Source: a virus. Taken from it: a DNA stretch of 47,112 nt. The notes under the pieces are model-generated. The model saw nothing but the letters and a program-made list of their open reading frames with translations, was not told where the DNA came from and did not search any database. The translations under genes and the position numbers were made by a program. Numbering within the stretch: the stretch's first letter is position 1; each line of letters begins with the position of its first letter. This document shows positions 2,611-20,500 of the stretch, piece after piece. Where the stretch lies: IMG/VR virus record IMGVR_UViG_3300025151_000063, positions 1 through 47,112 of that record. One strand, 5' to 3'.

Positions 2611-3295
2611 TGAGAAGCCGTTCTCAGCCCGCGTCTGTGAATGGCGGGATGCCGAAAAGGTCGTTTTCATGTCCCCGTTCTCCTCCAAGGTTCACGAGGG
2701 CGTGCCGGGAGGTTGGCCTCAGATCATCGATGAAGGAGCCCTCGACATTGTGGCTTTGTGGAAAGGTGGCCGTTTCAGGGTCGTGAAGGTGTCTGAGAAA
2801 GTGCCGACGCTGTTCCATAGGAAATACGCCTCCGAAGGAAAACCCGAGGAACTGACGGCCCTCCTGACGGACCCTGAGCAAAAAGTCGTGATGTTCGACG
2901 CCGAGAGGTTCGGTGTTCCGTTGATGGAGAACGCCCTCGGCATCAAGGTCGAGGCTGAGGTCATCGACCTGCTTCGGATGGTCAAGGAGGCTGACGCCGC
3001 TCTCCACGAGGACGCAGGACGCCGCATCCCGCTGCACAAGATCGCAAACGTGAACAGGAAGTCGGCTTCCGTGCCGCTGTTCCAATACCTGCCGATGTGG
3101 AATCTTGAGAGAGCCCGCAATTGGACCATTGGAGGGACGAGGACCGTGGTGTCTTCGCTGACCACCGATCTTGCGCTGATGGTTCAGGCGCTACATGGGA
3201 TGCACATGAGGGGCGGCATTATGGTGCCCTCCCGTGAGAGGAGCGGAGCCATTTTCAAGGCTTTTTCTGATAACGCGCAGGAATCCTGTCCTTGA
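2591..3295 (+). CDS. Possible degenerate DEDD/RNase H-fold exonuclease-like protein
   Basis: ATG 2591 is preceded by gaaggaagga and overlaps the ATPase end by 20 nt; 234 aa. The layout vaguely follows DEDD exonucleases: a strand-rich part with GALDIVALWKGG (motif I position), VVMFDAERFGVPLMEN (motif II position), then VIDLLRMVK and SSLTTDLALMVQAL, resembling the final Asp-bearing helix. The usual DxE of motif I is not clear, so it may be inactive or a different RNase H-like fold. The neighbours (nuclease, ATPase) fit a replication or repair role. Its tail overlaps the convergent methyltransferase gene by 41 nt. Low certainty on function, good certainty that it is coding. Confidence 0.5.
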   Translation: MWLLKSDEKPFSARVCEWRDAEKVVFMSPFSSKVHEGVPGGWPQIIDEGALDIVALWKGGRFRVVKVSEKVPTLFHRKYASEGKPEELTALLTDPEQKVVMFDAERFGVPLMENALGIKVEAEVIDLLRMVKEADAALHEDAGRRIPLHKIANVNRKSASVPLFQYLPMWNLERARNWTIGGTRTVVSSLTTDLALMVQALHGMHMRGGIMVPSRERSGAIFKAFSDNAQESCP

Positions 3296-4724
3296 TCCCT
3301 TCCATTCTCGCGGCAGCGATAGCCGCGTTCAGGATTTCGGCTTGCCTGTTCGGATTGACCGAATGCTGCAAACCGGGAACGTCCATTCTCGATGTCGGCA
3401 TACCGTGGTGACGTTCAAGGGCCGTGATGAAATCGAGTCCGAGGCTGTAAGGGATGACCGAACGGACGTGCTTTCCGCTCAATTTAGGAGAGCCGGGGTA
3501 AATCTGACCTGCCGGAACGGGCTTCATTGCTTGAACGCCCTTCTTTGACCCTCCGGGGGCTGGGATGTATAGCACGTCTCTTGCACCAACGATGGGGTTA
3601 TCCTTTGTGGGTTCCAATTTTGGCCGTGGAACAAAGGTTTCGGGCATAACGCCGAACAGGTCGGTGGGTTTCAAACCGGGTAATCCTTCCAATTGTTTGA
3701 AATCAGGATTTTTGGGAAGGCCGAACAAAGCGCGGTTTGCAGGTTCGCGGTATGAAGCCATGTCGATTTCCAACCGGGGGTAAGGCTGAATCTCAGATTG
3801 GAAGCGCATTTTTGCACGAGGATTCTCAATCAGGAAGTGAGGCATTCCCATCGCTACGAGATCGTCAATCATCCCCGTCGTGTGAGAGAGTAAGGCCTTA
3901 TTGTTGAGGACCGCCGCTCGTTGTTTTCTCGCGTTCTTTTCTGAAACAGGCCTGTTTCTGCTGATTTTCGGCAAACCTTCACGGGCACCTGATTGGTAAT
4001 ACATCATCTCCTCAACGGTTTTTGGGATGTGAACGTCAATGCCGAGATACGGGTCATCTTCCTCACTTTGTCGCCTCAACCACTCAGGTTTCAAGGACTG
4101 CCATGCTAACTGATTCTTGAACTCAATGTCGTCCATATTTCGCGCATACCACCTCGGCGGTGTTCCGGGTTTTCCAGCCTCTATCCAAGCGTCCCTTCGC
4201 CTCTCCTCATTCAACCGTTTTTCCTCAATTTCAGCGGAGGTGATAGCGCCGATTTCAGACACCCTTTCCGGGTTGATTTGATCAAGCAATTCAAGGACCG
4301 CATCGTTTGTTTTCCATCCCATGCCGCCACCAAGCATGGAGTATTTCGTGCATGGGACTGAGGCAACCATCGCGTCAGGAACTCGGCCGTCGAACGCATC
4401 CACCACATCGTCCGCAGTCATGCCGAGGACGTCTCGGGTGTGATAGTTCCCGCCGGGGTTGATGTTCAACGTGGGCTCCAATTCCCACATTTGGACGTTA
4501 TGTCCCCGCTCCTTTGCAGCGCCGCCCCAACCGCCGATTCCCAAGCGGTCGAAAATCACCCCTTCGGGTGTTGTGCCTTGACCTTGGCCCATGAAGTCGC
4601 TTCCGCCGAGCCCCGCGAACAGTTCAGCGATGTCGAGTCGGTCCTGCTTGGACAGGGAGTCCCATTCGACCTCTTCAGATAGCAGGGCCTTCATCAGGCT
4701 CCACGCTTGATCGAAGGCCGTCAT
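3255..4724 (-). CDS. C5-type DNA cytosine methyltransferase with N-terminal AFxxAWxxLK tag
   Basis: Start ATG 4724 follows gaggtgagagg. Motif I is LFAGLGG (residues 35-41, SAM binding), the catalytic Cys is in VPCTKYSMLG near 123, and an ENP motif (FLIENPRAKMR) lies near 300, followed by a KPTDLFG segment typical of phage ENP-type cytosine methylases. Cys and ENP are about 175 residues apart, far more than the roughly 40-50 usual in M.HhaI-like enzymes, so there is a large charged insert. Residues 1-12 (MTAFDQAWSLMK) precede the enzyme domain and match the helix shared by neighbouring small proteins. It probably protects viral DNA against host restriction. No partner restriction enzyme is present. 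Confidence 0.8.
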   Translation of the reverse strand: MTAFDQAWSLMKALLSEEVEWDSLSKQDRLDIAELFAGLGGSDFMGQGQGTTPEGVIFDRLGIGGWGGAAKERGHNVQMWELEPTLNINPGGNYHTRDVLGMTADDVVDAFDGRVPDAMVASVPCTKYSMLGGGMGWKTNDAVLELLDQINPERVSEIGAITSAEIEEKRLNEERRRDAWIEAGKPGTPPRWYARNMDDIEFKNQLAWQSLKPEWLRRQSEEDDPYLGIDVHIPKTVEEMMYYQSGAREGLPKISRNRPVSEKNARKQRAAVLNNKALLSHTTGMIDDLVAMGMPHFLIENPRAKMRFQSEIQPYPRLEIDMASYREPANRALFGLPKNPDFKQLEGLPGLKPTDLFGVMPETFVPRPKLEPTKDNPIVGARDVLYIPAPGGSKKGVQAMKPVPAGQIYPGSPKLSGKHVRSVIPYSLGLDFITALERHHGMPTSRMDVPGLQHSVNPNRQAEILNAAIAAARMEGIKDRIPARYQKKP

Positions 4725-4728
4725 CCTC

Positions 4729-5193
4729 TCACCTCTTCGTTGAGAACCTCGAACCACCCGCGCCCAATTGACGGCGCATGGCGGGCCTGACGGTGCCCCT
4801 GCTCTTGTTTCGCGCATATCGCTTTCGCGTCCTGCCGCGCTTGACCTTCCGTGACTGTGCCCACGCCTTGTTCGCCGCCTGACGGTAGGGCCGTGTGCTG
4901 ATCGTGGATTGCGTGTATCCGTGGAACTTGCCTTTGACGAGAGCGTCCCACGCCATCTCGAAAGCATCCTCAGACTTCAGATGACCATAACCGTGCTGTG
5001 ACCATTCGACGCCGAAATTGGAGGCTTCGTCCTCCTCCTTCAGCCTTTTCTGCTTCTCTCTCAAGCGTCTTTCAGTCTCGTCGTTCCGCTCTCGCATCTC
5101 ACGCGCTTCTCGGTCGGCACGGGACTCAGGAGGCTTCTCGACGGGGAGGGGCGAATTGATGCCGACCTCTTGGAGGTATTTCCTCAGGTCCAT
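4729..5193 (-). CDS. Basic coiled-coil protein with internal AFxxAWxxLK tag, 154 aa
   Basis: Start ATG 5193 shares one base with the stop of the upstream zinc-ribbon gene (TGATG); an apparent longer reading from 5253 would run through that gene. Residues 20-57 are a highly charged coiled coil, 73-88 are the tag (KSEDAFEMAWDALVKG) and 89-154 are strongly basic (RKVKRGRTRKRYARNK). If cut at the Lys-Ser and Lys-Gly flanking the tag, the product would release a free basic DNA-binding peptide of about 66 residues. The family is not recognised. A DNA-condensing internal head protein is the working idea, from charge and context only. Confidence 0.65.
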   Translation of the reverse strand: MDLRKYLQEVGINSPLPVEKPPESRADREAREMRERNDETERRLREKQKRLKEEDEASNFGVEWSQHGYGHLKSEDAFEMAWDALVKGKFHGYTQSTISTRPYRQAANKAWAQSRKVKRGRTRKRYARNKSRGTVRPAMRRQLGAGGSRFSTKR

Positions 5194-5369
5194 CACATCA
5201 CCAACCTCGGGCGCACGCCCTTCCACAATGAATCGCACACGGGGCATTCCCATAAGAATACACGGTCGCGGGAGCCTGCATAGAAACCATTGATCCGAAC
5301 GGCCAAAACGGGCTTATCACAGCCGGGGCAGTTCTGCTCAACCTTGTCTCTATACCTGCGGTCCATCAT
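5193..5369 (-). CDS. Zinc-ribbon protein, 58 aa
   Basis: Short gene bounded by an ATGA overlap with the structural gene upstream (start 5369) and a TGATG overlap with the basic protein downstream. C14-x2-C17 (CPGCDKPV) and C42-x2-C45 (WECPVCDSLW) with about 25 residues between them make a standard zinc ribbon of rubredoxin-like type. The two knuckles, the coupled junctions on both sides and the absence of any other good reading here support it as a real gene. Function unknown; it is similar in design to the other zinc-ribbon mini-proteins of this genome. Confidence 0.7.
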   Translation of the reverse strand: MMDRRYRDKVEQNCPGCDKPVLAVRINGFYAGSRDRVFLWECPVCDSLWKGVRPRLVM

Positions 5370-6529
5370 TGATGCCCCGCGTGGGTGTAGGTGATTTCCA
5401 AGAAGTTCACATGAGGTCCTGCGCTCCCACCGTATGTCGTTGCGATGTCCGTCACGGAAATGTTTGAACCTCCGACGGTGTAGTCTGTTCCTTGGATCAA
5501 CCTGATGTGATGTGTCGTTCCCGCCACGTTCTGATACGCATGAATGTCGATCAGGAACTTGCTAACGTCATCTTCAGACTCCAATGGCTTGAACATGATG
5601 CCGCCGGGTGGAGGGGACCCGTAATTGATGGTTGCCGGACCTGCGGAATAGGCAATCACCGCTTTGCTGACTCGATGAATCGGAGTCACCTGATAGACGC
5701 CGCCGCCGCCCGTGGTTCGGTCAAGCCCTGTATCCGATTGGAAGAAGAGGTGAGTTTGATTTGCTCCTTGAACGTGGCCTCCGTGGAAACCATTGGGGTC
5801 ACGGGCGAACAGGAAACCAACGTCGGTGATGGGCAAGTTTCCGGCGTTGAAACCGGCGATGTGGTCATTACGGGGGTTGGAATGGCTACCGTCTGAGTGA
5901 ATGAGCGAAGTCAGGGGCATTGGCCCGGCACGGACGAAAGCCCGCTTATCTTCGACTCCCTCGACGGTGGAAGTGCTTGCTCCTTTGCCCATGCGAAGAG
6001 CAGCGAGAACAACAGACTGTTGGTTGAGATGAGCCGAGGGGGCTGAGGGATACAGGCCGGAGCCGGTGTCCACGAATGAACCGTAAATCAAGCCAATGTT
6101 GTTCGGCTTGGACGGGTCGATATAGACGAGCATGATGGCTTCTTCATTCGCACCTGAAGGGTTCGAGATCGCCGTTGATGAGTGGGTGCTGTCGAGGTTG
6201 GCCGTGTTGGTTCCGACGTTGTAGGTCGTTTGGGCCACGGTGTAAAACATCCCATCCAACACCACGGTCCCTCCTTGCACCGTGATTGACGAGGTGGAAC
6301 CGAGTGTTCCGCTCGGCGCAACCGCACAGTTTCCTGCCGTGGGGTCATTGCGTGCGGTGTCGCTGTATTTGTTCAGCGTGATCGGCAGAACGCCGTTGAA
6401 GAGACTGCGTTCCACGAAGTTCGTAAGAGTGGGGGATGTGAGGACATCGGTGTCTCGGAGCCCATCCGATTGATAGGTGACTCCTGTGGCCGTTTTGAGG
6501 TGGCCTTCTGCAAGGTTGGTATTCGCCAT
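5366..6529 (-). CDS. Virion structural protein, probably baseplate or tail-fibre related
   Basis: A 387-aa Ser/Thr/Gly/Asn-rich, low-charge protein with a probable mainly beta structure. The first about 190 residues (FVERSLFNGVLP, TVQGGTVVLDGMFYTV, VYIDPSKPNN) resemble the N-terminal part of baseplate or fibre proteins that organise a repeated beta unit; the C-terminal half ends with a beta-rich domain (FLIDIHAYQNVAG, NFLEITYTHAG). ATG 6529 lies 4 nt after the stop of the preceding Cys-rich gene. It is separated from the other tail-tip genes by the accessory cassette, so it may be an exchangeable receptor-binding part. The family is not named with confidence. Confidence 0.6.
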   Translation of the reverse strand: MANTNLAEGHLKTATGVTYQSDGLRDTDVLTSPTLTNFVERSLFNGVLPITLNKYSDTARNDPTAGNCAVAPSGTLGSTSSITVQGGTVVLDGMFYTVAQTTYNVGTNTANLDSTHSSTAISNPSGANEEAIMLVYIDPSKPNNIGLIYGSFVDTGSGLYPSAPSAHLNQQSVVLAALRMGKGASTSTVEGVEDKRAFVRAGPMPLTSLIHSDGSHSNPRNDHIAGFNAGNLPITDVGFLFARDPNGFHGGHVQGANQTHLFFQSDTGLDRTTGGGGVYQVTPIHRVSKAVIAYSAGPATINYGSPPPGGIMFKPLESEDDVSKFLIDIHAYQNVAGTTHHIRLIQGTDYTVGGSNISVTDIATTYGGSAGPHVNFLEITYTHAGHQ

Positions 6530-6533: not shown

Positions 6534-6722
6534 TCACCGACTTTTCAAGACGTTCCAAGCGACCTGAAAAGCCTCGGGTTCTGACTTCTTGACCTTCTTC
6601 TTCCTCTCGATTTCTGCATAACAAGGACATAGAGGGGGTTTAGCCGAACACTTCGTAATGCCCTTTTTCATGCAAATGCAGGGGTTCTTCTTTGTCGCTC
6701 CGCAACAACAGCCATCTTTCAT
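6534..6722 (-). CDS. Cys/Lys-rich mini-protein with C-terminal AFxxAWxxLK tag, 62 aa
   Basis: Start ATG 6722 overlaps the preceding stop by one base (TGATG); the longer apparent reading from 6788 runs back through that gene. The first 37 residues hold eight Cys (GCCCGATKKNPCICMKK, KCSAKPPLCPCY), then a basic linker (ERKKKVKK) and the tag SEPEAFQVAWNVLKSR at the very C-terminus. Metal binding is likely. The tag at the C-terminus, preceded by Lys-Lys-Ser, mirrors the arrangement inside the 154-aa and 233-aa proteins. Family not recognised. Confidence 0.65.
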   Translation of the reverse strand: MKDGCCCGATKKNPCICMKKGITKCSAKPPLCPCYAEIERKKKVKKSEPEAFQVAWNVLKSR

Positions 6723-6865
6723 CAGGAAGACCTCCCGTGGCCCTCCCAATCGGGACAGCAATCTGAACAGCGGCCACACTTGGCGCAATGCTGTTCCTTA
6801 GCCTGATCACAGCGCGAGCATGGCTCCTGCTTCAAAACATCCCATGCGTGTTCAAACGGGTTCAA
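6722..6865 (-). CDS. Cys-rich mini-protein with N-terminal AFxxAWxxLK-like tag, 47 aa
   Basis: TTG 6865 overlaps the stop of the DUF5872-type gene as TTGA and follows gaggtgg; TTG 6868 and GTG 6874 are in-frame alternatives. The protein starts LNPFEHAWDVLKQEP, a variant of the shared tag, and continues with CSRCDQAKEQHCAKCGRCSD and CC, that is seven Cys in about 25 residues, enough for one zinc site and possibly a second. It is a very short gene, but the coupled junctions on both sides, the tag and the Cys spacing make it credible. Confidence 0.6.
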   Translation of the reverse strand: MNPFEHAWDVLKQEPCSRCDQAKEQHCAKCGRCSDCCPDWEGHGRSS

Positions 6866-7482
6866 CAATTCCACCTCTTCAATGCAGCACCTTTCGGCGT
6901 AAGTTTTCCACCCTTGCTCGTCGGCCCCTTGACGCCGCTCATGCGGGCGCAGAACGACTTGCGGCGCTTTGCCTTTTTCGATCCGGGCTTCAGCGAGGAT
7001 GGTTTCTCGGTGACGGGGGGCTTGAGGTTTGCACCTTCCTTGCGCTTTGCAGCGGCACGACCCTTAGCGTTCAGGCCGCCTTTGCGGCTGTGCTTGTTTG
7101 GGTTATAGCCGTGGAATGGCTTGTCCTTTCCCTTGGTGAGCATGGCCTTTGCGAGAAGCCCGCAAGTATCACAATCACAGGCGAATGACGTGCTTTTGAC
7201 CATCGTTGGCTTCCCTCCGACTCCCTGCGCTTTTGACCTCTTCCGGCGGGTTGCCGCCTTCTTGTCCTTTTGACTCATGCCCCTGCTCGTTTTAGGGGTG
7301 TCGGAGGACACCTTCTTCGATGGACGGCACTTTGGATAGCCCCGAGAGGACGTGTCGGCCTCAGAACGGCCACAGGGCGGGTGCTTGCCGTCCTTGTCTT
7401 TGCGGCTGACGTCCACCCACTTCTCCTTGAACCACCGACGCAGATCCTTCGTCAGAAGGGGTTGAATCTGCACGTCGCTCAT
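6862..7482 (-). CDS. DUF5872-type basic Cys-containing protein
   Basis: A 206-aa protein rich in Lys, Arg and Gly. Residues about 19-50 (EKWVDVSRKDKDGKHPPCGR and GYPKCRPS) match the DUF5872-type module known from large DNA viruses and some phages; a CDCDTC knuckle lies near residue 100; and the C-terminus (RRKSFCARMSGVKGPTSKGG...LKRWNC) is a second conserved module often seen with it. A virion-associated DNA-binding role is likely from charge and family distribution. The start, ATG 7482, lies 122 nt inside the end of the HMG-CoA lyase-like gene. It is followed by a TTGA-coupled Cys-rich mini-gene. Confidence 0.78.
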   Translation of the reverse strand: MSDVQIQPLLTKDLRRWFKEKWVDVSRKDKDGKHPPCGRSEADTSSRGYPKCRPSKKVSSDTPKTSRGMSQKDKKAATRRKRSKAQGVGGKPTMVKSTSFACDCDTCGLLAKAMLTKGKDKPFHGYNPNKHSRKGGLNAKGRAAAKRKEGANLKPPVTEKPSSLKPGSKKAKRRKSFCARMSGVKGPTSKGGKLTPKGAALKRWNC

Positions 7483-8302
7483 TTGAGAGGCCCCGGATTG
7501 ATTTAGCGATGTCGCTTGCTCGCTTAAGGTGTTCTAAATCGATGCCGGTTTCAAAGCCCCACGCATGGAGGTGCCGCACGAGGGTTTCGGTTGAGAGGTT
7601 CGCGCCGCTCCCAATCGCAAATGGACAGCCACCGAGGCCTCCAATGCTTGAGTCGAACTCCTTGATTCCGTGGAGCAGACCTGCTCGGACGAGGGACAAT
7701 GCCCTGCTTTCATCGCCCCTGTGGTGAAGGTGCAGCGCAGGCTTGATTCCCGCATCGAGGGCCATTTCTGCCCACTTCCTGACCTCTCCTGCGGTCCCTA
7801 CGCCGACGGTATCTGCAAAGACCACCGTATCCCCAAGCATCTTCGCATCTCGGATCAGGGACTTCATGTTCCTGTCCTCCACCTGTCCCGAATACGGGGA
7901 ACCGAAGGACATGGAGACATAGACGCGCACGTTCTCTCTCGGATAGCCGTTCAACACTTGGAACAACGAATGCACGACCTCGCTGTTCGTTCGCCTCAGG
8001 TTCTTCAGCGAGAACTGTTCACAGGCCGAGAGAACCACATTGACCTTGCTCACACCCGCAGCCATAGCCCGGTCGAAACCTCGTTGATTCATCACCAAGG
8101 CAGACCCACGCCCGGAGAAAACATCCTCAGCGTCCTTCATCTGCGGCATGATACGGGGGTGAGCGAAGGACACCTCCTCGATTTGCTCGACACCTGCCGA
8201 ATACAGCGCGTCGATCAGGTCACGCTTTGTGCCCGTGTCCACGAATGGCTCAATGGCTTGAATGCCGTCGCGGGGTCCGACTTCAAAGACTTGGACCCTC
8301 AC
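7361..8302 (-). CDS. HMG-CoA lyase-like enzyme (auxiliary metabolic gene)
   Basis: Predicted TIM-barrel lyase of the HMGL/DRE-TIM family, which splits 3-hydroxy-3-methylglutaryl-CoA into acetyl-CoA and acetoacetate. Visible signatures: VGPRDGIQ at 8-15 (catalytic Arg-Asp), SFAHPRIMPQM, VYVSMSFGSPYSG, FADTVGVG, the HxH metal ligands in ALHLHHRG, and the catalytic-loop Cys in GLGGCPFAIGSGAN followed by TETLVRHL and TGIDLEHL. In human HMGL the second His is followed by Asp; here it is His. The core ends near residue 275; the last about 40 residues are low-complexity and overlap the next gene out of frame. Start is GTG 8302 with weak Shine-Dalgarno but a TATA-like box 24-28 nt upstream. Confidence 0.85.
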   Translation of the reverse strand: MRVQVFEVGPRDGIQAIEPFVDTGTKRDLIDALYSAGVEQIEEVSFAHPRIMPQMKDAEDVFSGRGSALVMNQRGFDRAMAAGVSKVNVVLSACEQFSLKNLRRTNSEVVHSLFQVLNGYPRENVRVYVSMSFGSPYSGQVEDRNMKSLIRDAKMLGDTVVFADTVGVGTAGEVRKWAEMALDAGIKPALHLHHRGDESRALSLVRAGLLHGIKEFDSSIGGLGGCPFAIGSGANLSTETLVRHLHAWGFETGIDLEHLKRASDIAKSIRGLSNERRADSTPSDEGSASVVQGEVGGRQPQRQGRQAPALWPF

Positions 8303-8342: not shown

Positions 8343-9044
8343 TCAAGCGTTCTCTTCGAGGTATTGGTCGTAGTAGTCCATGAAGCCGTCAGCGACTTCT
8401 TCGTAATCAATGTCGTTCATGGAATCAACCGAACCGTCGTAGTCAGGCCTCGAAAGTTCTTCAGCCAATCCCTCGTTTCGCATAAGAGCGTAAGGAATGA
8501 TGTCCTGAGCGAGCATGGCGTGGACCTCCTCTCGGCTCATCCCACTTTGAACGGCACTTTCGATGCCTCCAATGACTTGACGATAAAGCCCCTCGTCGTT
8601 GTGAGCCCACAGTTCAGCACTCCGAGTCGCGGTGGCGACGTCCTTCAAAATGCCCCATGCTTTTTCCACGGGGTCGGACTTCTTCACCTTCTTGCTCTTC
8701 TTTTTCCATCCGCCGCCCTTCGATTTATACCACTTCGCGGCCCAACCGTTTGCGTAGGCTGATGGATAGACCTTGAACTTGGATCGGGCTTTGGACTTGG
8801 CCTGTGACCACAGGCCGGGGTTGGTCGGGACGTTGTCGCCCTTCTCAACCGATTTTGAAAGTCCGAACTCGTCTTTGAAACGCTTCACCGCTTCTTCCTT
8901 CGTGTAGCCTGAGTATCTTCGACGCTTCCTGTCGTTTCCAATAATGGCTGAAACTTCAATCGTTTCGTTTCCAACGGACACGCTTACGTCGTCGTCGCTT
9001 TTCATCAGTTCCCAAGCAGCGTGAAAAGCGTCGTCTGTCCTCAA
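8343..9044 (-). CDS. Basic protein with two AFxxAWxxLK tags, 233 aa
   Basis: Start TTG 9044 overlaps the preceding stop as TTGA. Domains in order: tag 1 at 1-16 (RTDDAFHAAWELMKS), a beta-rich part at 18-60, a basic module at 75-115 (KFKVYPSAYANGWAAKWYKS) also seen in other marine viral proteins, a Lys run, tag 2 at 121-136 (KKSDPVEKAWGILKD), and an acidic helical C-terminus. Having one tag at the N-terminus and one exactly between the basic and acidic parts suggests a two-part precursor. Family function unknown; DNA binding by the central basic module is likely. Confidence 0.7.
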   Translation of the reverse strand: MRTDDAFHAAWELMKSDDDVSVSVGNETIEVSAIIGNDRKRRRYSGYTKEEAVKRFKDEFGLSKSVEKGDNVPTNPGLWSQAKSKARSKFKVYPSAYANGWAAKWYKSKGGGWKKKSKKVKKSDPVEKAWGILKDVATATRSAELWAHNDEGLYRQVIGGIESAVQSGMSREEVHAMLAQDIIPYALMRNEGLAEELSRPDYDGSVDSMNDIDYEEVADGFMDYYDQYLEENA

Positions 9045-9277
9045 ATGTAATCCCTCATTTTGTCTTTCTCGTAATCTGAAAATCCGTAAGGGTCGTGAAC
9101 CACTCTTCCGCTCCCGTCCACAAGTGCTGATTCAACGTGTTCCATCGGGTCGTAGCAATCATCACAAATGATCATGTTTCCGTCCAAATCGATGAAATCG
9201 TCGGTTTCCTTACCGCAGATTTCGCAGTAGTAAGGGTCGCTTTTGAGAAGCGCCCAAGCGATGTCGAAAGCGGTCAA
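9041..9277 (-). CDS. Zinc-ribbon protein with N-terminal AFxxAWxxLK tag, 78 aa
   Basis: Start TTG 9277 overlaps the stop upstream as TTGA; the stop at 9041 overlaps the next TTG the same way. Residues 1-14 are the tag (TAFDIAWALLKSD), and 17-42 hold a zinc ribbon (YCEICGKE ... IICDDCYD, C-x2-C twice). The rest is acidic. Compared with the methyltransferase N-terminus (TAFDQAWSLMKA) the tag differs at few positions although the attached domains are unrelated, which is what marks it as a movable module. No family recognised. Confidence 0.7.
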   Translation of the reverse strand: MTAFDIAWALLKSDPYYCEICGKETDDFIDLDGNMIICDDCYDPMEHVESALVDGSGRVVHDPYGFSDYEKDKMRDYI

Positions 9278-9873
9278 TCAATCACCCGGAAGTAGTTCAT
9301 ATAATCGTCAATATCGATTTCACCCGATGCGACACGTTCGATGAAGCCCGGAAACTGCCTCTCCAAGGCGTAAATGACCATCTGCTTCGCATCTTCAATC
9401 GTGCTTTCGTCTCCAATCGACGTATCCTGCATCACTTGGGAAGGACTGTTAGGTGGGTAGTCGGGGACCGTTCGACTTTGCACGGAGTAGTGGCCGATAG
9501 GCGCTCCTCCATAGAACTCCATTTCATCTTCGATGAGCGCCCTATCCTCCTTTGGCGAAATCCCGAGAAAATTCACTTCAAACTCCCCCATTTCACCCCC
9601 TTCTGCGAAGTCCGGTGATGCCCCTGCGGCGAAGGGAACGGTTTCGTGGGTCCCCCCGCGAATACCAAAGATTCCACCGCCGATTAGGTCGTGTGGCCCC
9701 TTGACCTGATATGGGACGCGAATCGTCCTTTGACCGTGGATTTTGGGAAAGAGGGCGTCTCCGAAAGCCCTGATTCGCTCGTGTTGCCAAGTCGGATACC
9801 CTGTTCCGTCCCGTCCTGACGCATCTTCCGAGGCCTTTAGGACGGCCCACCCTGAATCGAAAGCGGACATCAT
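9274..9873 (-). CDS. Uncharacterised protein with N-terminal AFxxAWxxLK tag, 199 aa
   Basis: Start ATG 9873 lies in an ATGATG with an ATGA overlap onto the previous gene. Residues 1-16 are the tag (MMSAFDSGWAVLKASE). The body (about 20-199) is a mixed alpha/beta protein with GTGYPTWQHERIRAFGD, a Gly-rich stretch (DLIGGGIFGIRGG) and an acidic C-terminal helix. No known family is recognised and no catalytic motif is obvious. It is the first gene after the tail-tip block and the first of the tagged series. Confidence 0.62.
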   Translation of the reverse strand: MMSAFDSGWAVLKASEDASGRDGTGYPTWQHERIRAFGDALFPKIHGQRTIRVPYQVKGPHDLIGGGIFGIRGGTHETVPFAAGASPDFAEGGEMGEFEVNFLGISPKEDRALIEDEMEFYGGAPIGHYSVQSRTVPDYPPNSPSQVMQDTSIGDESTIEDAKQMVIYALERQFPGFIERVASGEIDIDDYMNYFRVID

Positions 9874-10214
9874 CGCACCTCCAAGACGACGTCCACCCGC
9901 ATTTCTGTGGTGGACCCTTTCGCAATTGGAATGAATGTGGACCTGAAGGCGGGTGCGTCAAATGAAGTGTCTCCGTGCAACACCACCTCCTTGATGTCCT
10001 GCTCGCTCGTGAGGCCTGTGCCGAATACGCCGCTTACCGAGATCGTGCGGTCATCGAGACGAGTCACCTCAGGCGTGACGCTTAATTGAGCATTGCCGAC
10101 TCCGCCGTCACGGGTGCTTGCCTGTCCACCGCTTGACCCCAAAGTCATGCTCTTGACGAGCGTGACCATGTGGTCCGTCAAGGCCGCCTTGAATGCGTCG
10201 AGAACAGGCATCAT
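9870..10214 (-). CDS. Small tail-associated protein, 114 aa
   Basis: ATG 10214 overlaps the stop of the giant tail-tip gene as ATGA. The protein has an N-terminal helix (VLDAFKAALTDHMVTLV), a Gly/Ser spacer, and a beta-rich remainder ending TFIPIAKGSTTEMRVDVVLEV; an IP(L/I)xK(T/G)...(E)(I/M)RV(D) strand of this kind occurs in small phage proteins next to baseplate genes. A small wedge or tail-tip accessory protein is the likely role, by position. No tag helix is present. Confidence 0.55.
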   Translation of the reverse strand: MMPVLDAFKAALTDHMVTLVKSMTLGSSGGQASTRDGGVGNAQLSVTPEVTRLDDRTISVSGVFGTGLTSEQDIKEVVLHGDTSFDAPAFRSTFIPIAKGSTTEMRVDVVLEVR

Positions 10215-13200
10215 TTCACCTCGTAGGTCTTGCTCTTGGATAGTCCGATGGCGCGACCCCTCTTAGAACCATCCCGAACGCCAATCTTGCCGATGCCTCC
10301 ATGTCCTCGCTCACCGATGACGAAGGCCTGTTGGTTGGCGTTGCGGACCGTGACGCGCATAATCGAGGCAACGCGCACAGCACCCGTCACCGTCGTCTCG
10401 TCCACCACAATGTCGCGGTCAGATGGCTGTTCTGTCGTGGAGGCGTTGCCGATGCGTGCTTGAATCTCAGAAATCAAACCCTCAACGCCCTTCTCATATT
10501 GGGCGACGATGATGTCGCTGCGGAGGTTGATGTAGTCGTGCTTTGCCTCAAAGACGGCGAAACGTCCTACAAAGCCAAAGGTCGGGAGATTGACGTTCAC
10601 GACGTCACCGGGCATCAAGGAGGTGGCGTTGAGAAGCCCCTGAAGCGTGATCAGCGGCGCACCATTCTCCGCACGCGAAAGTAGCGACTTCGCCACCCGT
10701 AGGGCTTCCTGACTGTTCTTCAAGCCGGGGATAGCGCGGCGGAGCGTGCGAACGAGGTTGCGTTCTGCGTCTGCCCCTGCCGCCTTCTTCATTTTCTCCG
10801 TGTCGCGCACGACCGCAAAGACCACTTCGTTATCCGCCACGCTGTCGCCTTCAATGATGACTTCGTTGGGGCTGTCGAACATTCGACTGACTGAAACGCT
10901 GAGGGCTCCCGATTCCATGCCGACGCGAGCGCCTTCGTCCCTGAACACGTTCGCTGAATACACGAGCAGGCCATTGCCCTCATAGACGACTTGGCGGCCG
11001 TCAATGCTCGACAGGGTGCGGAAGAGGTCGAGGACGTTCAAGCCTCGTGCTTCAAGGGACGTGAAAGTGGGACTGTGTTCAGCCATTTGACGCAGAACGG
11101 GGTGGGCGTTCACAGCGGCGTTTGCCTTGTGGTCGAAATTGGTCAGCGCCCTTGTTCCGGCGATGTTGAAACCGGCGATCTCACCTGCGGCATCATTGAG
11201 TAGGTGCATTGCGGCATCAGAAGTGCGAACTCCAACGAAACCGTGCTGACCCGCAATTGCTTGTTCTGCGACCCCATCGGCGTTGCGGAGGACAAGGCGC
11301 GTGGTCCCCTGAATGACCTCGGTATCAGCCACACGCCATCGTCCACCTTCGCTGTCGAAGAGGTATGGTGGGTGGAAGGTGCTGCTGATGCTTCGTCCAT
11401 CAATTTGAATGGTTGAGCGGGAGATTGGCCGAACCACGGCGCTGTCGTCGCTGTAATTCACGAATAATGGACGCTGACTCGCCATGATGAAATCCGTCGG
11501 GTCATAGGGCCGCAGGCCACGGTAGGACAGGGATGTCTTCGACACCGTTCCTTTGGCGGGGTCATAGCGCCACCATGCTCCGTTTTCGACACGGTTCACA
11601 ATAACGGCGTTGTCGATGAATGTCGGAGCAGCGGGGACGGGAGAAGCAAATACAGCATTGGAGGCAAGAACCAAACGGTCGCCAACCGAGAACGATGGAG
11701 TGCTTGAGCCGGTCAGCACGTTTCGTTGAATAGAGGTGTAAGCCCATGTCGAAGCCCCGCCAATACCGAGAGTCCCTGCCGTGGGCAATCCGGGGACCTG
11801 ATCCAAGACCAAGCCATTCGTGATGACCTGACGGACTACGAAGTAGGGCCGAAGCAGGCCATGTGAGTCGTTCTGAATGACGTGCGGGTCGAATGTGTGT
11901 TTCATGTAGTCGCCCGCGGTCCCATTCCCGTCCGCGTCATAACGTGATTCAGACTCGTGGACTCGTTCACCACCGCCGGGGTGAGACGACTGTGAATACC
12001 GCGCCTCGATGTCCGGACGAATCACGCTACCCACCTTTCGCTGTGCATCCGACTTGAAGTGTTGAAGCATGGCTGTTGAGGGAATCAAGTGGAAGACCAC
12101 ATCATGCTCGTTTGCGTCAGGCCATTCAATCTCCAATGCTCCATCTGACGAGGCGATTAGGTCAATGGCTCCGAGGTTTCGGTCGGTGTTGAACTCAAAC
12201 ACGCCGTATCGCTTGTCGCGGTGCATGACCTGTGAAGAGCGGTCATTGGTGTCGGCGCTTGAAATGCGGGCACCGTGAAGCCACCCGTCTTGGAGCAGAT
12301 CGGAGGCGTAGCCGAACATCTTCAGGGGCCGCACCAAACGGACGATGTAGTCCACCGTCTTCCTGACCGGCTGCCCTGCATGGCCGACCGTGCCCTCAAG
12401 GCTAACCCGTTTTGAGTCGGTGTCGTCCCTGTTGAGGTAGGTCTTTCTCAGGATATAGACGCCGCCCCACGCGGGGAGGTCAGCACTACCTCGGACAGTC
12501 CAAGCGTCTTTGGCGTGCGTCTTTGGCGTGAAGCGAACGGAGTCCCCTGAAGCCACGATTGCGCCTTTAGCAGCGTTGCTGTCGGGCGACCACGTCGGCT
12601 TAACGTCGAGGTCTGCAATGGCGTGGGCAGAACTGCCTCCGCTCGTGGTCATGCCGCGGTTTGCGAACTGAGCATTCACGGTCCAAGAGGGAAGGACGGG
12701 GAAGTGACGACCGATGTTCAGGTCTGAATGAAGCGAAGCGGCAACAGTCCCAACCACGCCGTAGGTTCGTGGCTTGTTTGTCTCGCGTTGATTCTCCGTC
12801 TCAATGACGAGTCCAAGGCGCGGTTCAGCGCGAGACTGAACCTGACGACTCTCCGAGACTTCAGAAAGCGGGATCGGTGCAGCCTTGGTCACGGAACCCG
12901 CGGACGTAGTGGCGAGTCCCCACCCATTGACCGGGTAGTGCTTCTGCGATGTCGCATAATGCACAGGGGTTGCGTTGGTGTGTAAGATGTGGCCGCCGTG
13001 GGCAAAGAACGAGGAAGATGCGCCAAAGGTTGAGGATGCGTATTCGACGCTTCCTGCCGAACGGCCCTGACTGTATGTCGATGCCCCCGTGAACTGCACG
13101 AGGTCAAGTGCAGGGTCCAACCCCTTGTTTCGGGTGGTGTAGTCGAGGTCATCAGCGGTGTATCCCGAGTGGGCAGACGCCGTGATGCTGATTGCGTATT

Positions 13201-16200
13201 TGCGACTCAGGTAGGACTCGACTGACTCTCGCTCCGTGGTGGTCAAGGCGCGGTCATACATGATGACCTCAGCGATTTTGCCGTTCAAGAAAAGTGAAGA
13301 GGGGACCACGCCAAGATTGAGAGGACCTGCTGTGGATTTCCAAAATGCCCCGGTATCGGTGTCCAATTGAGTTCCGTCCTTACGGAGGTCAAGTGTAGCA
13401 GTTCCTCCGGAACCGTTGCCTCCGGTCACGGCAAAAGACACGAGCGCCGCTTCGCCGGGGACAACGGAGTTCGCTCCACCCAAAGACTGAGTCCAACCCG
13501 TGTTTGACCCAACCCAAAACTCCCATTGGTTGTCTGTCGCCATGTCCGCATACAGATTGAAACCCGCCCGAGTGACGGGGGTGCTTGACCGACTCTCAAT
13601 GATGCCGTGGAAATTGCCGTCGTCCACGTCCACTTCGCAGATCATAAAAACCGTCATTTCTGTGGGGTTGAGGACGCTGCTGAATGCAGTCTCCAAAGAA
13701 TCGTTCCCGTCGCAGTCCACAGCGGGCCGGTTGTTCATGCTTGCCTGATGCTTGATCAGGGAAGGCTGTGCAGAAGCGGACGATTGCGTGAACTCGAACG
13801 CATTGTCTGACCTGTCTGTCCAAGAAGTGACCGCCGCGCCGTTGGCTAAATCGAGGTCGCCCGCATCAAGCCACAGAACCGGCGAGGTCACGGGCAAAGC
13901 GGTGGGCCGTGTATCGACGTATTCGACGTCCCACGCTCCGGAAGCAAGTGCTGTCGGAGAGGTCAGACCATTCTCCATGACCTTCAGACGGCGACCAATA
14001 CCGATGCGGTCGAACTCGGACGGGGGGTCGTTGGACAGGCGTAGCGTCGAGTGATAGGGCGTTGCCTCCGCCGTGTGGCCGGACATGACGAAACCGACAG
14101 GGTGACTTCGCTCGATCCCCTCGTAGGCGTTCGGCATCATCCAATCTGCGCCAAAGTCGGTAGCGTCGGGCATCAGCGCCATAGAATCGTGAATGCCGCC
14201 ATCGAATCGTCCGCTCTTCAACACCTTTTGCTGATTGGTGGTGTTTTCCGTAGGGTCGCCTGCGAGCATATCGAGGGCGCTCGACGTGGACCGCGCCCCC
14301 CAACCACGAACAGGAAGCCGACGAGATACGTTGGTGGCGACCATTGGGCTCTCCACATAGAAAAATCGGGTGAATGGGGAACTGTCTGTGGCGTCTGTGT
14401 CCACAGTCACGCGAGCCCCGTCATGCTCGGGGTCGATGGCGTCACCGATTCCTTCTGCTCGTGAATACCGAACGGGTCCGCTCGTGGCTCGGATCAGTCG
14501 AGCGGTGCCCTGAGCCTCACGGACGGTGGAATGACCCATGAGGACTGCTCCCGCTGCCCTGAGCCCCTCGGCGCTCCCATGACCTCCTGCATTCAGCCCG
14601 TTGTATCCGTAGTTCTGCAACCATTGGATTGCGAGCAATCGCTCGAACACGTCACTTGAGAGGTTCTCCAAAAGCAACGCACGGACTGAACGTGCGGTCG
14701 ATGCTTTGGGCATTCCCATCTGACGATAGCGGAAGGTCAGGTAATGCTCACGGGATGTGCCGAACAAAGCGGGGTGACTGTATTCCGCAAGCCATGTGCA
14801 TAGGAAAGCATCGGGATAGGCTCCGGTGTTTGTATCCCTGTTGTCGAAAGCGCCGAGGTTTCGATTTGACGTCGTGGATTGAGTCCAAGCGGAGGACGAA
14901 GCAAGAAAAAGACGCGCATCCATCATGTTCATCGCTTCAGGGTCATGATGAGCAAGTGGCGGAACCGTTGCGAGTTCAGTCCCCGGCTTGGGGACAAAGA
15001 CTCCTTCTTCGAGCCCACGGACGAAGTAGTTCTCACTACCTGATTTTGTGATCGTTGGGGGTTCAGGTCGGCCACCAAACATCACCGGCTGATCGAGGAA
15101 GAAGCCATTCACCATGAACTCGGACCCTACATCGTCCCGGTTGCTGAATGAGAGTGCCGTGCTGAGGGTCAAATGAGTGGAGGTGGCGGTCCCGCTGATT
15201 GTGGTTGTCGAGACGCTCGCTTTGGAAACTGATTGGGAAGCGCCCTCAACAGCGGTATGAACCTGTCCGGGGGCGATGACGTATTCAGCGTCTTGATTGG
15301 CCGCACCGCTACCTGAACGCCGTTGGTCATTCTGTCTCGCTCCTGTGATTTCCTCCGCTGCGAGGTTGTCCGCAGCAAAGGCTCCCGTTGCTTCATCATA
15401 GCCCGACTCACCTTTGACGTCCAACGTATCGAGATAGAGCGCCGTCGTGGTGTTTGAGGGGTCGGGGGACGAGAAACCAAAGTGACGGTGTTCGCTTTCT
15501 GCCTCCATCATCAGGGAATATGACGAACCAAATGAGCGGTGCAATTGACGGCGCAGGTGCATTGGAGTCCCACGATGCCCAACGGGCGTCACAAACGAGT
15601 GACCCTGACGACCAAAACGGATGCGGTGGTGTGGGTATGGGTGCCCTGTCGCTGTGCCGTTGTTTGTCTGCGTCAGAACAGACCCGCGTTCAGCGTGGTC
15701 GCTGATCCTATGAGCCGTGAAGAAGCGAGTCGTTCCGCTCGGCACCGCACCTGCGGTAATATCGCTTGACGTCTTCACGAGGGAAAGGCTTGGGTGCAGC
15801 ATTCGCGTGCAATGAAACACCAACATTCGGTCATGCGTATCGAAGTCTTTGCTCGTATCATCATGGATGCTAAGACCGCCCATTCCCCACGACTTGTCCG
15901 CCCAAGCCTGAACCCGGTCGTGTGCCGAACGGACGAAGATGTCGCCGGGGATTTCCTCGGGCGCAGGCAATTGGATGGAAAGGTTCGGAGTTTGATTCCC
16001 GAAGGTATCTGACGGGCCGATAACCTCCTCGCCCGTCGATTCATCGGTTCGAGCATTCTCAATGACGAAATCCTTGATCACAGTCCCGAAGGGAGAGCCC
16101 CCTTCAAGAATGAGTTCGTTTCCTTGGTCATCGACAACCGGAAGAGGGTCGAACACGCGATGCTCATTGGAGATGGTTAAGCCTCGGACCCGTTCGGAAT

Positions 16201-17512
16201 TGACGGTTCGGGTCATCCGATATGGACGCGCATAAGCGTGGGCATTGTCGTCTTGGATGCCGTGCAACACCGCCCCGTTATCGAATGAAATATCGGTAAG
16301 AGTCCCCCCGCTTGCGAAGTGCGTTTCTCCGATGTTCACCGGAGAACCCGTGTATCCGCTTTCAAGTGCAATGCTATAACCCCGGTCCTTTCCATAAAAG
16401 TCCGACCCGTATTCAGGCGTGGTCACATGGAAATTGTTGAAGGTTGTTGAGGTAAGGCCGCTTGTGTCTTCATTGTCCTCATGGGCGAGGGTGGCTCCGT
16501 GGATCGTTGGCTTCTGATACGTTGAATCCGGGGGGGGCATATCGGCAAGATAGCACGAGTTCAAACCCTCAAGAGAAAAACGGGAATATCCATAACCGCT
16601 AAGGTTCGCCACATTACGTCCATTGCTCGTCTGCTTGTTCACCGCAGGAATGCCCATGTTGCCGCCATCCATTGGTTTCGCAATGAACTTCCACAACGGA
16701 ACGGTAGTGCCCACGCCTTGAACGATTGGGCCAAGGGTTGCTTCAGCCGAATGCGTGTTGCTCAAACTCACCGCCGGAATCGTGCGCCCTCGCCATGAAA
16801 CAATGACGCTGTGCTTGGCTGTGTCTCCTGCAACAGAAACCGCTGCTGATGAGGCGGAACCCGGCGTGAATGGCGTGGTGGAAATGGTGAAACGGGCCTT
16901 TGCTGTGCCTGACGTTTGACTGAACGTCTCAACCTTGGTGTAGGAATAGTCCGTGCTTGCGACCGTGATGGTTCCCGTGGGGGGGAGGTCTGTTGGGTAT
17001 CCGAATGGGTGGTCGCCGCTGAACTCCACAGTCACAGCGTTGTTTGCTGTGTATCGGTCTGCTGTGCCTGAATACGTTTCACGCCCCGACATCTTGACGT
17101 ATCGGGCTTGGAAACCTTGGTAGTTCGCGTCTCCACGTTCTGTTGTCTGAAGCCGCCGGTCATTGATTTTGGCCGCGATGAGGCGTGTTGCTTCTTCGGT
17201 CCCAAGGTCAAAGGTCAGGGACGAACCCGCTGCGGCGGCATCCGTCTTGGCTTGTTTCAAATCGACCACAATGACGTTCGTTGTCTCAGACGGCGCTGAG
17301 TCGTATGCAATGTTCGTTCGCACGATCACCGTCAGCCCTTGCTTCCACACATCTCCCGGGTTGGACGCATAAACCCAATCCGAGGCATCGTCATCATATT
17401 TGGTGTCCGGATAGGTGAAGTGCATGGCGAAGAACCCGCTCTTAGGGTATCCCGAAGATGTGCCGAACGGCTGAACGGCGGCGGGATACAGGGTTTTCCT
17501 GAAGGTCGCCAT
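10211..17512 (-). CDS. Giant tail-tip protein with LamG-like domain and hub-like C-terminus, 2433 aa
   Basis: Start ATG 17512 (TGATG with the upstream stop); GTG 17515 and 17518 are in-frame alternatives. The N-terminal about 1200 residues are Ser/Thr/Gly/His-rich beta protein. Residues about 1210-1440 form a LamG/jelly-roll module (PVLWLDAGD ... AEVIMYDRALTTTERES). The last about 300 residues (from LEARGLNVLDLFRTLSSIDG, then SPNEVIIEGDSV, GLKNSQEALRVAKSLL, LMPGDVVNVNLP) resemble the phage hub or tail-associated domain family (late control gene D/XkdQ-like). It therefore appears to join the ring-forming hub with a long receptor-reading region. It is the longest gene in the window and is internally unbroken. 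Confidence 0.7.
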   Translation of the reverse strand: MATFRKTLYPAAVQPFGTSSGYPKSGFFAMHFTYPDTKYDDDASDWVYASNPGDVWKQGLTVIVRTNIAYDSAPSETTNVIVVDLKQAKTDAAAAGSSLTFDLGTEEATRLIAAKINDRRLQTTERGDANYQGFQARYVKMSGRETYSGTADRYTANNAVTVEFSGDHPFGYPTDLPPTGTITVASTDYSYTKVETFSQTSGTAKARFTISTTPFTPGSASSAAVSVAGDTAKHSVIVSWRGRTIPAVSLSNTHSAEATLGPIVQGVGTTVPLWKFIAKPMDGGNMGIPAVNKQTSNGRNVANLSGYGYSRFSLEGLNSCYLADMPPPDSTYQKPTIHGATLAHEDNEDTSGLTSTTFNNFHVTTPEYGSDFYGKDRGYSIALESGYTGSPVNIGETHFASGGTLTDISFDNGAVLHGIQDDNAHAYARPYRMTRTVNSERVRGLTISNEHRVFDPLPVVDDQGNELILEGGSPFGTVIKDFVIENARTDESTGEEVIGPSDTFGNQTPNLSIQLPAPEEIPGDIFVRSAHDRVQAWADKSWGMGGLSIHDDTSKDFDTHDRMLVFHCTRMLHPSLSLVKTSSDITAGAVPSGTTRFFTAHRISDHAERGSVLTQTNNGTATGHPYPHHRIRFGRQGHSFVTPVGHRGTPMHLRRQLHRSFGSSYSLMMEAESEHRHFGFSSPDPSNTTTALYLDTLDVKGESGYDEATGAFAADNLAAEEITGARQNDQRRSGSGAANQDAEYVIAPGQVHTAVEGASQSVSKASVSTTTISGTATSTHLTLSTALSFSNRDDVGSEFMVNGFFLDQPVMFGGRPEPPTITKSGSENYFVRGLEEGVFVPKPGTELATVPPLAHHDPEAMNMMDARLFLASSSAWTQSTTSNRNLGAFDNRDTNTGAYPDAFLCTWLAEYSHPALFGTSREHYLTFRYRQMGMPKASTARSVRALLLENLSSDVFERLLAIQWLQNYGYNGLNAGGHGSAEGLRAAGAVLMGHSTVREAQGTARLIRATSGPVRYSRAEGIGDAIDPEHDGARVTVDTDATDSSPFTRFFYVESPMVATNVSRRLPVRGWGARSTSSALDMLAGDPTENTTNQQKVLKSGRFDGGIHDSMALMPDATDFGADWMMPNAYEGIERSHPVGFVMSGHTAEATPYHSTLRLSNDPPSEFDRIGIGRRLKVMENGLTSPTALASGAWDVEYVDTRPTALPVTSPVLWLDAGDLDLANGAAVTSWTDRSDNAFEFTQSSASAQPSLIKHQASMNNRPAVDCDGNDSLETAFSSVLNPTEMTVFMICEVDVDDGNFHGIIESRSSTPVTRAGFNLYADMATDNQWEFWVGSNTGWTQSLGGANSVVPGEAALVSFAVTGGNGSGGTATLDLRKDGTQLDTDTGAFWKSTAGPLNLGVVPSSLFLNGKIAEVIMYDRALTTTERESVESYLSRKYAISITASAHSGYTADDLDYTTRNKGLDPALDLVQFTGASTYSQGRSAGSVEYASSTFGASSSFFAHGGHILHTNATPVHYATSQKHYPVNGWGLATTSAGSVTKAAPIPLSEVSESRQVQSRAEPRLGLVIETENQRETNKPRTYGVVGTVAASLHSDLNIGRHFPVLPSWTVNAQFANRGMTTSGGSSAHAIADLDVKPTWSPDSNAAKGAIVASGDSVRFTPKTHAKDAWTVRGSADLPAWGGVYILRKTYLNRDDTDSKRVSLEGTVGHAGQPVRKTVDYIVRLVRPLKMFGYASDLLQDGWLHGARISSADTNDRSSQVMHRDKRYGVFEFNTDRNLGAIDLIASSDGALEIEWPDANEHDVVFHLIPSTAMLQHFKSDAQRKVGSVIRPDIEARYSQSSHPGGGERVHESESRYDADGNGTAGDYMKHTFDPHVIQNDSHGLLRPYFVVRQVITNGLVLDQVPGLPTAGTLGIGGASTWAYTSIQRNVLTGSSTPSFSVGDRLVLASNAVFASPVPAAPTFIDNAVIVNRVENGAWWRYDPAKGTVSKTSLSYRGLRPYDPTDFIMASQRPLFVNYSDDSAVVRPISRSTIQIDGRSISSTFHPPYLFDSEGGRWRVADTEVIQGTTRLVLRNADGVAEQAIAGQHGFVGVRTSDAAMHLLNDAAGEIAGFNIAGTRALTNFDHKANAAVNAHPVLRQMAEHSPTFTSLEARGLNVLDLFRTLSSIDGRQVVYEGNGLLVYSANVFRDEGARVGMESGALSVSVSRMFDSPNEVIIEGDSVADNEVVFAVVRDTEKMKKAAGADAERNLVRTLRRAIPGLKNSQEALRVAKSLLSRAENGAPLITLQGLLNATSLMPGDVVNVNLPTFGFVGRFAVFEAKHDYINLRSDIIVAQYEKGVEGLISEIQARIGNASTTEQPSDRDIVVDETTVTGAVRVASIMRVTVRNANQQAFVIGERGHGGIGKIGVRDGSKRGRAIGLSKSKTYEVK

Positions 17513-20500
17513 CACCACACATCCCGAGCAGCGAACAACTCCTGCGCTTCAGCGAAGGTGAGCGCACGCTTAAACACCGCGAACTCAGACGAATACCCGG
17601 TTCCGTTGTATTGGGCAGATGAAGACCCGACTCCTGCACCTCCGTAATATCGGGTTCCTGAGATAGACGCGGAAAAGGCGTTGAAGTATCCGGATTTGGT
17701 CGAACCATTGCCGAAGTCCGCAACAGCGGCCCCCCCATTGGTTGTGATTGGGGCTCCGGGGGGTGTCGTTGTGGGATCGAGATTGATGTAGGGAGGACCA
17801 ATTAAGCCGTGATGAATCATGGTCATTCCTCTCGCTCGAACCCCACCTGAAAATCCGGCCGAACTGTCGGTGTCGTTGTGGTCAGCGGTTCCCGCTGCAA
17901 GAGGTGGTGTGGTATCGACAGTCCTGAACCCAAGCGGGTCATTGTTTGGAGCAATACCCGCGCCCGTTGGGCCATAGTTCACATCGGAGGCCGTAGCCAT
18001 GTGGTTCGTGAGATCGACTATGGTGTTGCTTTGAGGGGAACCCGCTACCGTGAATGAGCCTTCAGAACCGAAGTAAAAGAAGAAGCGGCTGTTGGCGTTG
18101 TCGTATCCCGCCACCACATAGCACCACGTTGAAGGGGTGTATTGGAGAGAGCCGTGGGTTGTGGTCTGACCCACAAAGACCCCTGCTTGCACGTTCAATG
18201 GGTCAGATGCCCGAGTCACGGCCAATTGGAGGTGGTAATTTGAACCGTCATCAAGCGACCCGAGGTGAACCCCCCAAGGCACATCCGTTGAACCGTCGAT
18301 CCCGTGAATCATTGGGCCATCAAAACGTGCTGACGAGTAGGTTTTATACCACCCCGCTACCGTCCAAGAACCTGAACCGTTGAATGTGTTAAGAGGGTGC
18401 CGCTTGACGACCGCGCCCGAATCATATTTGTGAATCGCTGTGTGGCTTGTCGCATAATTCAGGGCAGCCCCATCGGGGTCGCGGGGCTCCGTCGGTCCTG
18501 AAACGGTCGTTCTCGCACTTGATGAACGGTTCCGTGTGTGGTTGGTGAGGCCGTAAATCTCGTCTTTGAACGTCTCGACGGTCGTGTTCCCTGCGATTCC
18601 CGCATTGAAACGGGTGTAAAGCGCAGCGTAGTCCTCGGGCTCACCCGCTGTATCCAAAACGGTCTTGTGGTGCAGGCCTCGGAATGAGTCCACGTTGATT
18701 GTGTCGTCGTTGGTCAGATCGGTGAAATCCAAGATGGCTGAAGCACCTGAAACATCGCCTACGTTGGCGAACCCGGAGAACCCTTGGGCGTCTGCATAGT
18801 GGTGCCTGTATTGACCGGAGTAGTCCTTATCTGACCCGTCGCTCATGTCGAACACAACGCCCGTGTGTCCTCCTCCGAAGAACAGGATGCCGTCGGCGTC
18901 CAAAGTCGGAGAGAGGATGCGGACCTTGACTCCGGGCAGGGCTGTTTTGGTGCCTCCGTTTGGCGTCGTGTGAAAGAGGTCATAGAAACTTGCGAGGTCA
19001 TCGACGGGCGTGACGCCTGTGAGAAAGACACAGTTCTCACCGGAGTTGCTGCTCGCATCATTCATCGCAATGCCCGTGAACTCGGCCAATTTTCCATCGA
19101 CTTCGATGATTCCCTTATTGGTGGCCGTGACCTCATAGGAACCCCGAACCAACAGGTCAAGCGCCTTTGTTTCGACTGCGATGTGGTTAATCGCCGTGGG
19201 CACCGACCCTGATGGAGCGGGGTCCAAAAGAGCGGGGGTGGCCGCCGCTCCTGTATTGGTATGGGCGGTTGGAGTGACCGTATCAACCTCCAAAATGCCG
19301 CCGATTCCGTCATATGAACGGAAGGTGATGTCGTCGGGGTCGGTGAAATCGTCACGGGTTTGAGCAGCACCGTGAGGGGCTCCGGTGAAAGTGGTGATCG
19401 GAACGAACGTCTCACCGTCCGGGCCAAGGGGCAGGGGGGCGGGGAACGAGTTCGCTTGATACAGGCGACTGTTGGTCGCCAACGGGCCACCGTATCCAAT
19501 GGCTTGAGTGGGGCGATATGCGTATGGTGTCCGGTTCTTCAACCACACCGCAAAGTTCCGTCCTGCTGCTCCGGGGACTGTGCTATGAATGACGATGCTG
19601 ATGCCTCGCTCACCGCTACGGCTCTCGACTTCTGAACCCATGAAAGCACGGACATACCCCATGTGGCTTCCGGTGTCCGTGGAGGCCGCATCAGCGGGTG
19701 GGTCGAAAGCAGATGAACCGACGGAGTTCTTCGCCTGTGGATGAGCCGCTGTGTTGATTTTGCGAATGACCTCCTCGACAGCGGTTGTGAATGAACGGTT
19801 GGTGTTGGCGACGTCGCTGAAATCAATGCGCTGAGGTTGAACGAACACGAGCGAGTTCCCGTCAGCCTTTTTCCCCTTCAAAGCCAAGGCATATGGGTAG
19901 CAGTCAATGGGCTGCTCAAGCCTTCGGTCATTGTTTGGGAACACCGTCTCGTCAGGGTCGAACTCGAAACCGCCCATGTTCGGGCCCTTGCCCTCCAAAT
20001 AGACTCGGGTTGAATCATTCGGGTCCACGGTCTTCGTCAAAGCGTCATCAAATAGCGCGTTGATGTCGTCTGCGATCTCACTTGCGTTCGTTGCGAGGTC
20101 TGCTGTGCTTCGTGAACGAACGAAGCCACCGTGAACAATGGGCATTCCTGCAAAGATTGGCCCTGCTGTGACCGCGGCTCCGGTCACAGGGTCCTTGATT
20201 GAACCAATCGTAAGCGAGGATGCTGCCCGTGTGGTGATTTCACCTTGAACTCCGAAGGGGTGAGATGCTCCCAAGAACCCCTCTCCGATGGTCACGAAGT
20301 CGCCTTGAGCGGGTAGGAACTCCAAACCCGAAATGCTTGGAATTGAGATTGTGACTGTGCTTGACCCGGAAATGTTTGTCGCGGCGGTTGCGACTGTCTG
20401 TTCAGACAACCGCTGTGCGCGAATCAAATACCCCGTTCCTGCCTTGTTCACTTTGACGGCGATGGCGTGAGCAGCCATCCCCCAATCAACAGCCCAACGG

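Follow-up and report, generated by a model that had tools for sequence, protein, structure and literature searches.

In enzymes of the HMG-CoA lyase family, a metal orients the substrate, the hydroxyl group at C3 is deprotonated, and the bond between C2 and C3 is broken. Among viruses, HMGCL has been listed as an auxiliary metabolic gene of magroviruses, with a label for leucine degradation (Xu et al. 2023, PMC10160649), and the initial annotation of the DNA described here, to which such a lyase was unfamiliar as a viral accessory gene, has to be corrected in this respect. Magroviruses have replication and virion modules that are transcribed in opposite directions (PMC12999244). Their hosts, the Poseidoniales, rank with the most abundant archaea in surface seawater, and nearly all knowledge of them comes from sequence. 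This lineage is reported to have archaeal isoprenoid-lipid genes alongside bacterial-like fatty-acid genes; the archaeal lipid genes come without a G1P dehydrogenase, and the membrane type itself is debated (PMC7852524).

The stretch analysed here (the window) is the linear IMG/VR virus record IMGVR_UViG_3300025151_000063 of 47,112 nt, which is probably a fragment of a magrovirus-like genome. Its minus strand, read from high to low coordinates, encodes the C-terminal part of the large terminase subunit (46519-47028), the portal protein (43496-45268), a prohead serine protease (36343-37794), the major capsid protein (35162-36319; phrog_24667), a tape-measure-like protein (25877-27361), and large tail or lectin proteins, among them a tail-type protein of very large size that contains a Laminin_G_3 domain (10211-17518). 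Small late genes follow on the same strand at 9870-10214, 9274-9873, 9041-9277 and 8343-9044, the last with a weak DUF5872 match below the cut-off, and then the lyase (7361-8302), which the initial annotation had rightly placed among virion-type genes and which lies at the end of this block. Directly downstream of it is the gene of a magrovirus protein with DUF5872 and DUF6321 (6862-7482; 86% identical in locus L063), then a late gene (5366-6529), and the block ends with a DNA-methyltransferase-like gene (3255-4967; phrog_363, 2e-07). The gene at 9870-10214 is homologous to a family (F8) that directly precedes the lyase in other magroviruses, and the one at 5366-6529 to a family (F9) that adjoins it there. 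The plus strand carries, from base 330, a gene with the domain match of an ERCC4-type nuclease (330-1109) and one further gene (1132-2610) without a Pfam match, which by eye resembles a family (F3) found past the lyase in other magroviruses. These two genes form the start of a replication module convergent with the virion block, so that the opposed modules of magroviruses are found also in the window. The nearest annotated relatives of the portal and the capsid protein are those of tailed haloviruses, both being of the tailed-halovirus/magrovirus type, and a lyase-bearing 105-kb genome (G006), which has a family B DNA polymerase and a chaperonin, encodes a capsid protein with 65% identity to the one of the window. 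The 47-kb window does not cover the genome part in which this polymerase is found. By its virus group, the virus presumably infects a Poseidoniales archaeon.

Several proteins of the window share the motif FDxAWxL[LM]K, which occurs six times, in comparison to a mean of 0.085 and a maximum of 2 in shuffled proteins. The genes concerned are 3255-4967, 6534-6788, 8343-9044 with two motifs of this type, 9041-9277 with FDIAWALLK at the N-terminus, and 9274-9873 with FDSGWAVLK at the N-terminus. In lyase-bearing loci, the motif is found 127 times near an N-terminus and 96 times inside proteins (for example at 3416-9052 of L282), and YSGSELLKAD is found near the start of capsid proteins. The FDxAWxL[LM]K motif might serve in capsid targeting or as a signal for the prohead protease, comparable to what is found in T4 internal proteins. 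The G006 genome (loci L277-L282) has in addition matches to an ArdA antirestriction protein and an SNF2 helicase.

The lyase gene has a GTG start and encodes 313 residues. Its assignment to the HMG-CoA lyase family by the initial annotation is borne out by the PF00682 HMGL-like domain (E 7.7e-24, residues 2-264, 84.9 bits in comparison to a gathering score of 29), by the NCBIfam HMG-CoA lyase model NF004283 as best model (227 bits, E 2.8e-67), and by solved structures, of which HMG-CoA lyases are the only close ones (2ftp, 1.6e-44; human 2cw6, 1.3e-40). The curated cut-off of NF004283 is 246 bits, and the window protein as well as all other copies of the main viral clade (52 of 52) stay below it, the window protein being the best of the 52. 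Structure prediction, which had been proposed as a check, points to the same family: an AlphaFold model computed from 52 viral sequences (pLDDT 87.8, pTM 0.84) is predicted to resemble eight human and bacterial HMG-CoA lyase entries with Z scores of 35.5-37.1, in comparison to at most 28.1 for other DRE-TIM enzymes. Among the latter, 2-isopropylmalate synthase and homocitrate synthase can be excluded, with 28.9 of 484.75 bits (LEU1_arch) and 28.6 of 462.9 bits, and the structure scores agree with this. The last ca. 33 residues (281-313) have a pLDDT below 50, they are encoded where the frame overlaps the 6862-7482 gene by 122 nt (7361-7482), and most relatives stop at 275-285 residues, which is why this disordered tail is regarded as lying outside the enzyme core (residues 1 to about 275). 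In locus L001, for comparison, the lyase and its downstream gene overlap by 4 nt. The extension of the frame in the window may be a natural overlap or due to an indel near the end; the core is unaffected.

The RD, HxH and GGCP signatures that had been recognised initially are indeed intact (R11 and D12, H191 and H193, G224-P227), with the refinement that the second signature is HxHH where cellular enzymes have HxHD. All 11 catalytic or active-site positions are present in the window protein (E7, R11, D12, E42, S45, R126, D164, H191, H193, C226, N235), and the equivalents of human E37, R41, D42, E72, S75, R165, D204, H233, H235, C266 and N275 are invariant in the 52 viral copies. R165 and H235 were read from the profile alignment and the viral alignment, since gaps shift the columns around them in an automatic alignment of 113 rows. 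D12, H191, H193 and N235 are presumably the metal ligands, R11 presumably stabilises the acetyl-CoA enolate, and C226, located on the mobile GGCP loop, is taken to protonate the enolate as an acid, so that no residue required for the mechanism is missing; the equivalent of C266 is absent from several cellular paralogues and always kept in the viruses. The residue that follows HxH is invariably a histidine in the main clade (52 of 52 copies), and the divergent viral copies have H, E or K there, whereas in the sampled cellular sequences it is mostly D, or N, and rarely E or Q; the cellular HxHD/N feature is thus not found in the viral copies. C170, C174 and S201 are also altered in most viral copies (C174 to S, S201 to V), and together with the change beside HxH this suggests that the substrate preference may have shifted. 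In the main clade, the loop before the LVxN strand is 8-10 residues shorter, while divergent copies retain a longer, cell-like loop.

A search of related viral genomes, which had likewise been proposed, revealed the lyase in about 78 other IMG/VR contigs by pattern and profile scans. The pattern scans gave 62 viral loci at 50-64% identity and one partial locus, 15 further loci are of a more divergent type, and one more was found by profile, with some of the loci likely representing the same virus in several samples. The divergent type (L262-L276) shows 47-68% identity to the seed within each subgroup and about 38% to the window protein, and in one of its subgroups HLHEN or HLHKN replaces HLHH. 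When capsid proteins were used as seeds, contigs of at least 80 kb contained the lyase in 8 of 10 cases with the capsid type of the window and in 2 of 11 with a second capsid type, fractions that are no estimates of prevalence, as most seeds had been taken from viruses with the lyase. A chaperonin of the TCP-1/cpn60 family is present in all 21 long lyase-bearing records that were tested. The late block of several groups ends with the lyase, which stands head-on with the chaperonin gene, and in other groups, as well as in the window, it is followed by additional small genes; the recurrent position is the distal late block, close to replication or chaperonin genes of convergent orientation. Records of Acinetobacter phage MD-2021a (CAKLQH020000001.1, CAKLQF020000001.1; 328-379 kb) contain an HMGL homologue labelled leuA_2; these are possibly bacterial sequences deposited under a phage name, and their matches were left out of the analysis.

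The presence in about 80 contigs of related viruses is accompanied by strong purifying selection (dN/dS of 0.04-0.11 in 11 viral pairs), and both together argue for a real metabolic gene of these viruses. With the invariant catalytic residues and this dN/dS, an inactive remnant is unlikely. In two trees, with 61 and 63 cellular or solved sequences, the viral copies form one clade with a support of 100/100 and a long stem of 1.3-2.2 changes per site. The cellular set consisted of bacteria from one GTDB pattern scan, solved sequences, and a haloarchaeal plasmid copy as the sole archaeal cell sequence, and the placement in a DRE-TIM tree that had been suggested gives a clear viral clade, whereas the deep cellular branching is poorly settled and establishes no grouping with characterised HMG-CoA lyases. 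When 399 genomes of two bacterial phyla were searched with a viral profile, no cellular protein exceeded 208 bits, in comparison to 269-510 bits for the viruses, and the nearest cellular identity to the viral lyase is 38%, which does not support a recent capture from bacteria. In the Poseidoniales genome literature searched, no mention of a host HMGL copy was found. Distances between lyases hardly correlate with those between capsid proteins in 25 genomes (Mantel r 0.03, p 0.36 for all; 0.27-0.30, p 0.01-0.04 in subsets), which suggests an exchange of the lyase or of the capsid between magrovirus lineages. The lyases of L028 and L027 are 87% identical, yet the capsid nearest to that of L028 is the one of L035, a disagreement that may be a sign of module exchange.

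In light of these data, the favoured interpretation is that the gene encodes a virus-adapted, active acyl-CoA lyase that late in infection would convert HMG-CoA of the host to acetyl-CoA and acetoacetate, with substrate and benefit being the inferred parts, and the chances that this is correct appear about balanced. The identity as an HMG-CoA lyase is strongly inferred from the sequence rather than a demonstrated membership, as the copies form a separate clade, carry a changed residue next to the histidines that bind the metal, and in none of 52 cases reach the NCBI cut-off. With respect to this curated cut-off and to the HxHD/N feature, the protein is best filed as HMGL-like, as one that would work like an HMG-CoA lyase without being proven to be one. 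Judging from the gene order, it would be translated from the distal portion of a late magrovirus transcript, and with a divalent metal it would carry out a retro-Claisen cleavage of HMG-CoA that yields the two products. More tentatively, growth of the host membrane would be useless to the virus at this stage, and HMG-CoA might be pulled from the archaeal mevalonate route; its carbon might be returned as acetyl-CoA that supplies energy and precursors while virions are produced, and the same cleavage could also complete leucine breakdown. A wider proposal is that a virus-specific lyase subfamily, swapped among marine archaeal viruses, shuts down or redirects the isoprenoid lipid supply of the host late in infection and thereby controls the mevalonate route, but this must be regarded as rather doubtful. 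If it is true that a selected viral enzyme acts at HMG-CoA, it would offer a handle on the virus-driven flow of carbon and lipids in Poseidoniales.

The same reaction might serve leucine catabolism, in which case an infected host that uses peptides would yield more acetyl-CoA and acetoacetate, and lipid synthesis would not be the target. The HMGCL of magroviruses has been assigned to leucine degradation (PMC10160649), and MGII archaea are described as degraders of proteins and fatty acids that have amino-acid transporters in some clades (PMC6336850). However, the former assignment is a KEGG label without analysis, and in 52 proteins from one of the lyase-bearing genomes (25 of 31 families listed) no other HMG-CoA or leucine-pathway genes were recognised, so that a pathway context is absent there, and a role in leucine breakdown is possible without being probable. 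Also the substrate could be another one, either a different 3-hydroxy acyl-CoA such as citramalyl-CoA or a CoA ester specific for virus or host, with the same chemistry. The virus-wide change after HxH, the shortened loop of the main clade, the replacement of C174 by S and of S201 by V, the long stem branch and the score under the NCBI cut-off would all fit, and one HMG-CoA lyase (6nds) has been solved with CoA and 3-methylmalate. But the catalytic set and the GGCP loop are unchanged, HMG-CoA lyase is the top match in every library that gave matches, and the models of other DRE-TIM enzymes such as LEU1_arch are far under their cut-offs; a different substrate is conceivable, though not probable either.

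It is very improbable that the protein is no longer an enzyme but a structural or regulatory protein derived from an old lyase. It is encoded among virion genes, and its neighbours share the FDxAWxLLK motif that is maybe a virion-targeting tag, but the lyase copies themselves lack this motif (with one weak C-terminal match in L020), and a structural role would not need catalytic residues that are invariant in 52 of 52 copies. An artefact by which host or bacterial DNA was joined into a viral contig, the caveat that had been raised initially, could be considered for a single linear record of 47 kb, but as the gene recurs in about 78 further contigs, in a virus-only clade and in similar neighbourhoods, and as the copy of the window is flanked on both sides by magrovirus-type genes, such an assembly join can practically be dismissed.

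In comparison to other viruses, the closest annotated relatives of the window portal (29-33% identity) and capsid (32-34%) are those of the tailed haloviruses HVTV-1, HCTV-1 and HCTV-5, in which a search for the lyase gave no match. A viral HMGL-like protein of the same fold is found in a Klosneuvirus (A0A1V0SKU2 in BFVD; TM 0.80-0.88, 28% identity), which is a giant virus of eukaryotes. With the HMG-CoA lyases of human (2cw6, 3mp3, 3mp5) and bacteria (2ftp, 1ydn, 1ydo, 6nds), the magrovirus enzyme has 32-35% identity at the Z scores given above, and they have in common the TIM barrel, the metal ligands, the catalytic Arg and Asp, Asp204, Cys266 on the GGCP loop, and Asn275. They differ in HxHH, HxHE or HxHK in place of HxHD/N, in the mostly changed positions C170, C174 and S201, in the main-clade loop that is shorter by 8-10 residues, in the viral end near residues 275-285, in the separate clade, and in the score under the NCBIfam cut-off. 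The survey of Xu et al. (2023, PMC10160649) concerns the same virus group and the same family label, but it gave a KEGG label only and called the auxiliary metabolic genes sporadic, and beyond that listing no further analysis of magrovirus HMGCL was found in a literature search that was incomplete for magroviruses. What appears to be new in comparison are the virus-specific subfamily, its selection, its recurrent position and breadth, the exchange between lineages, the change adjacent to the metal site, and the divergent second type.
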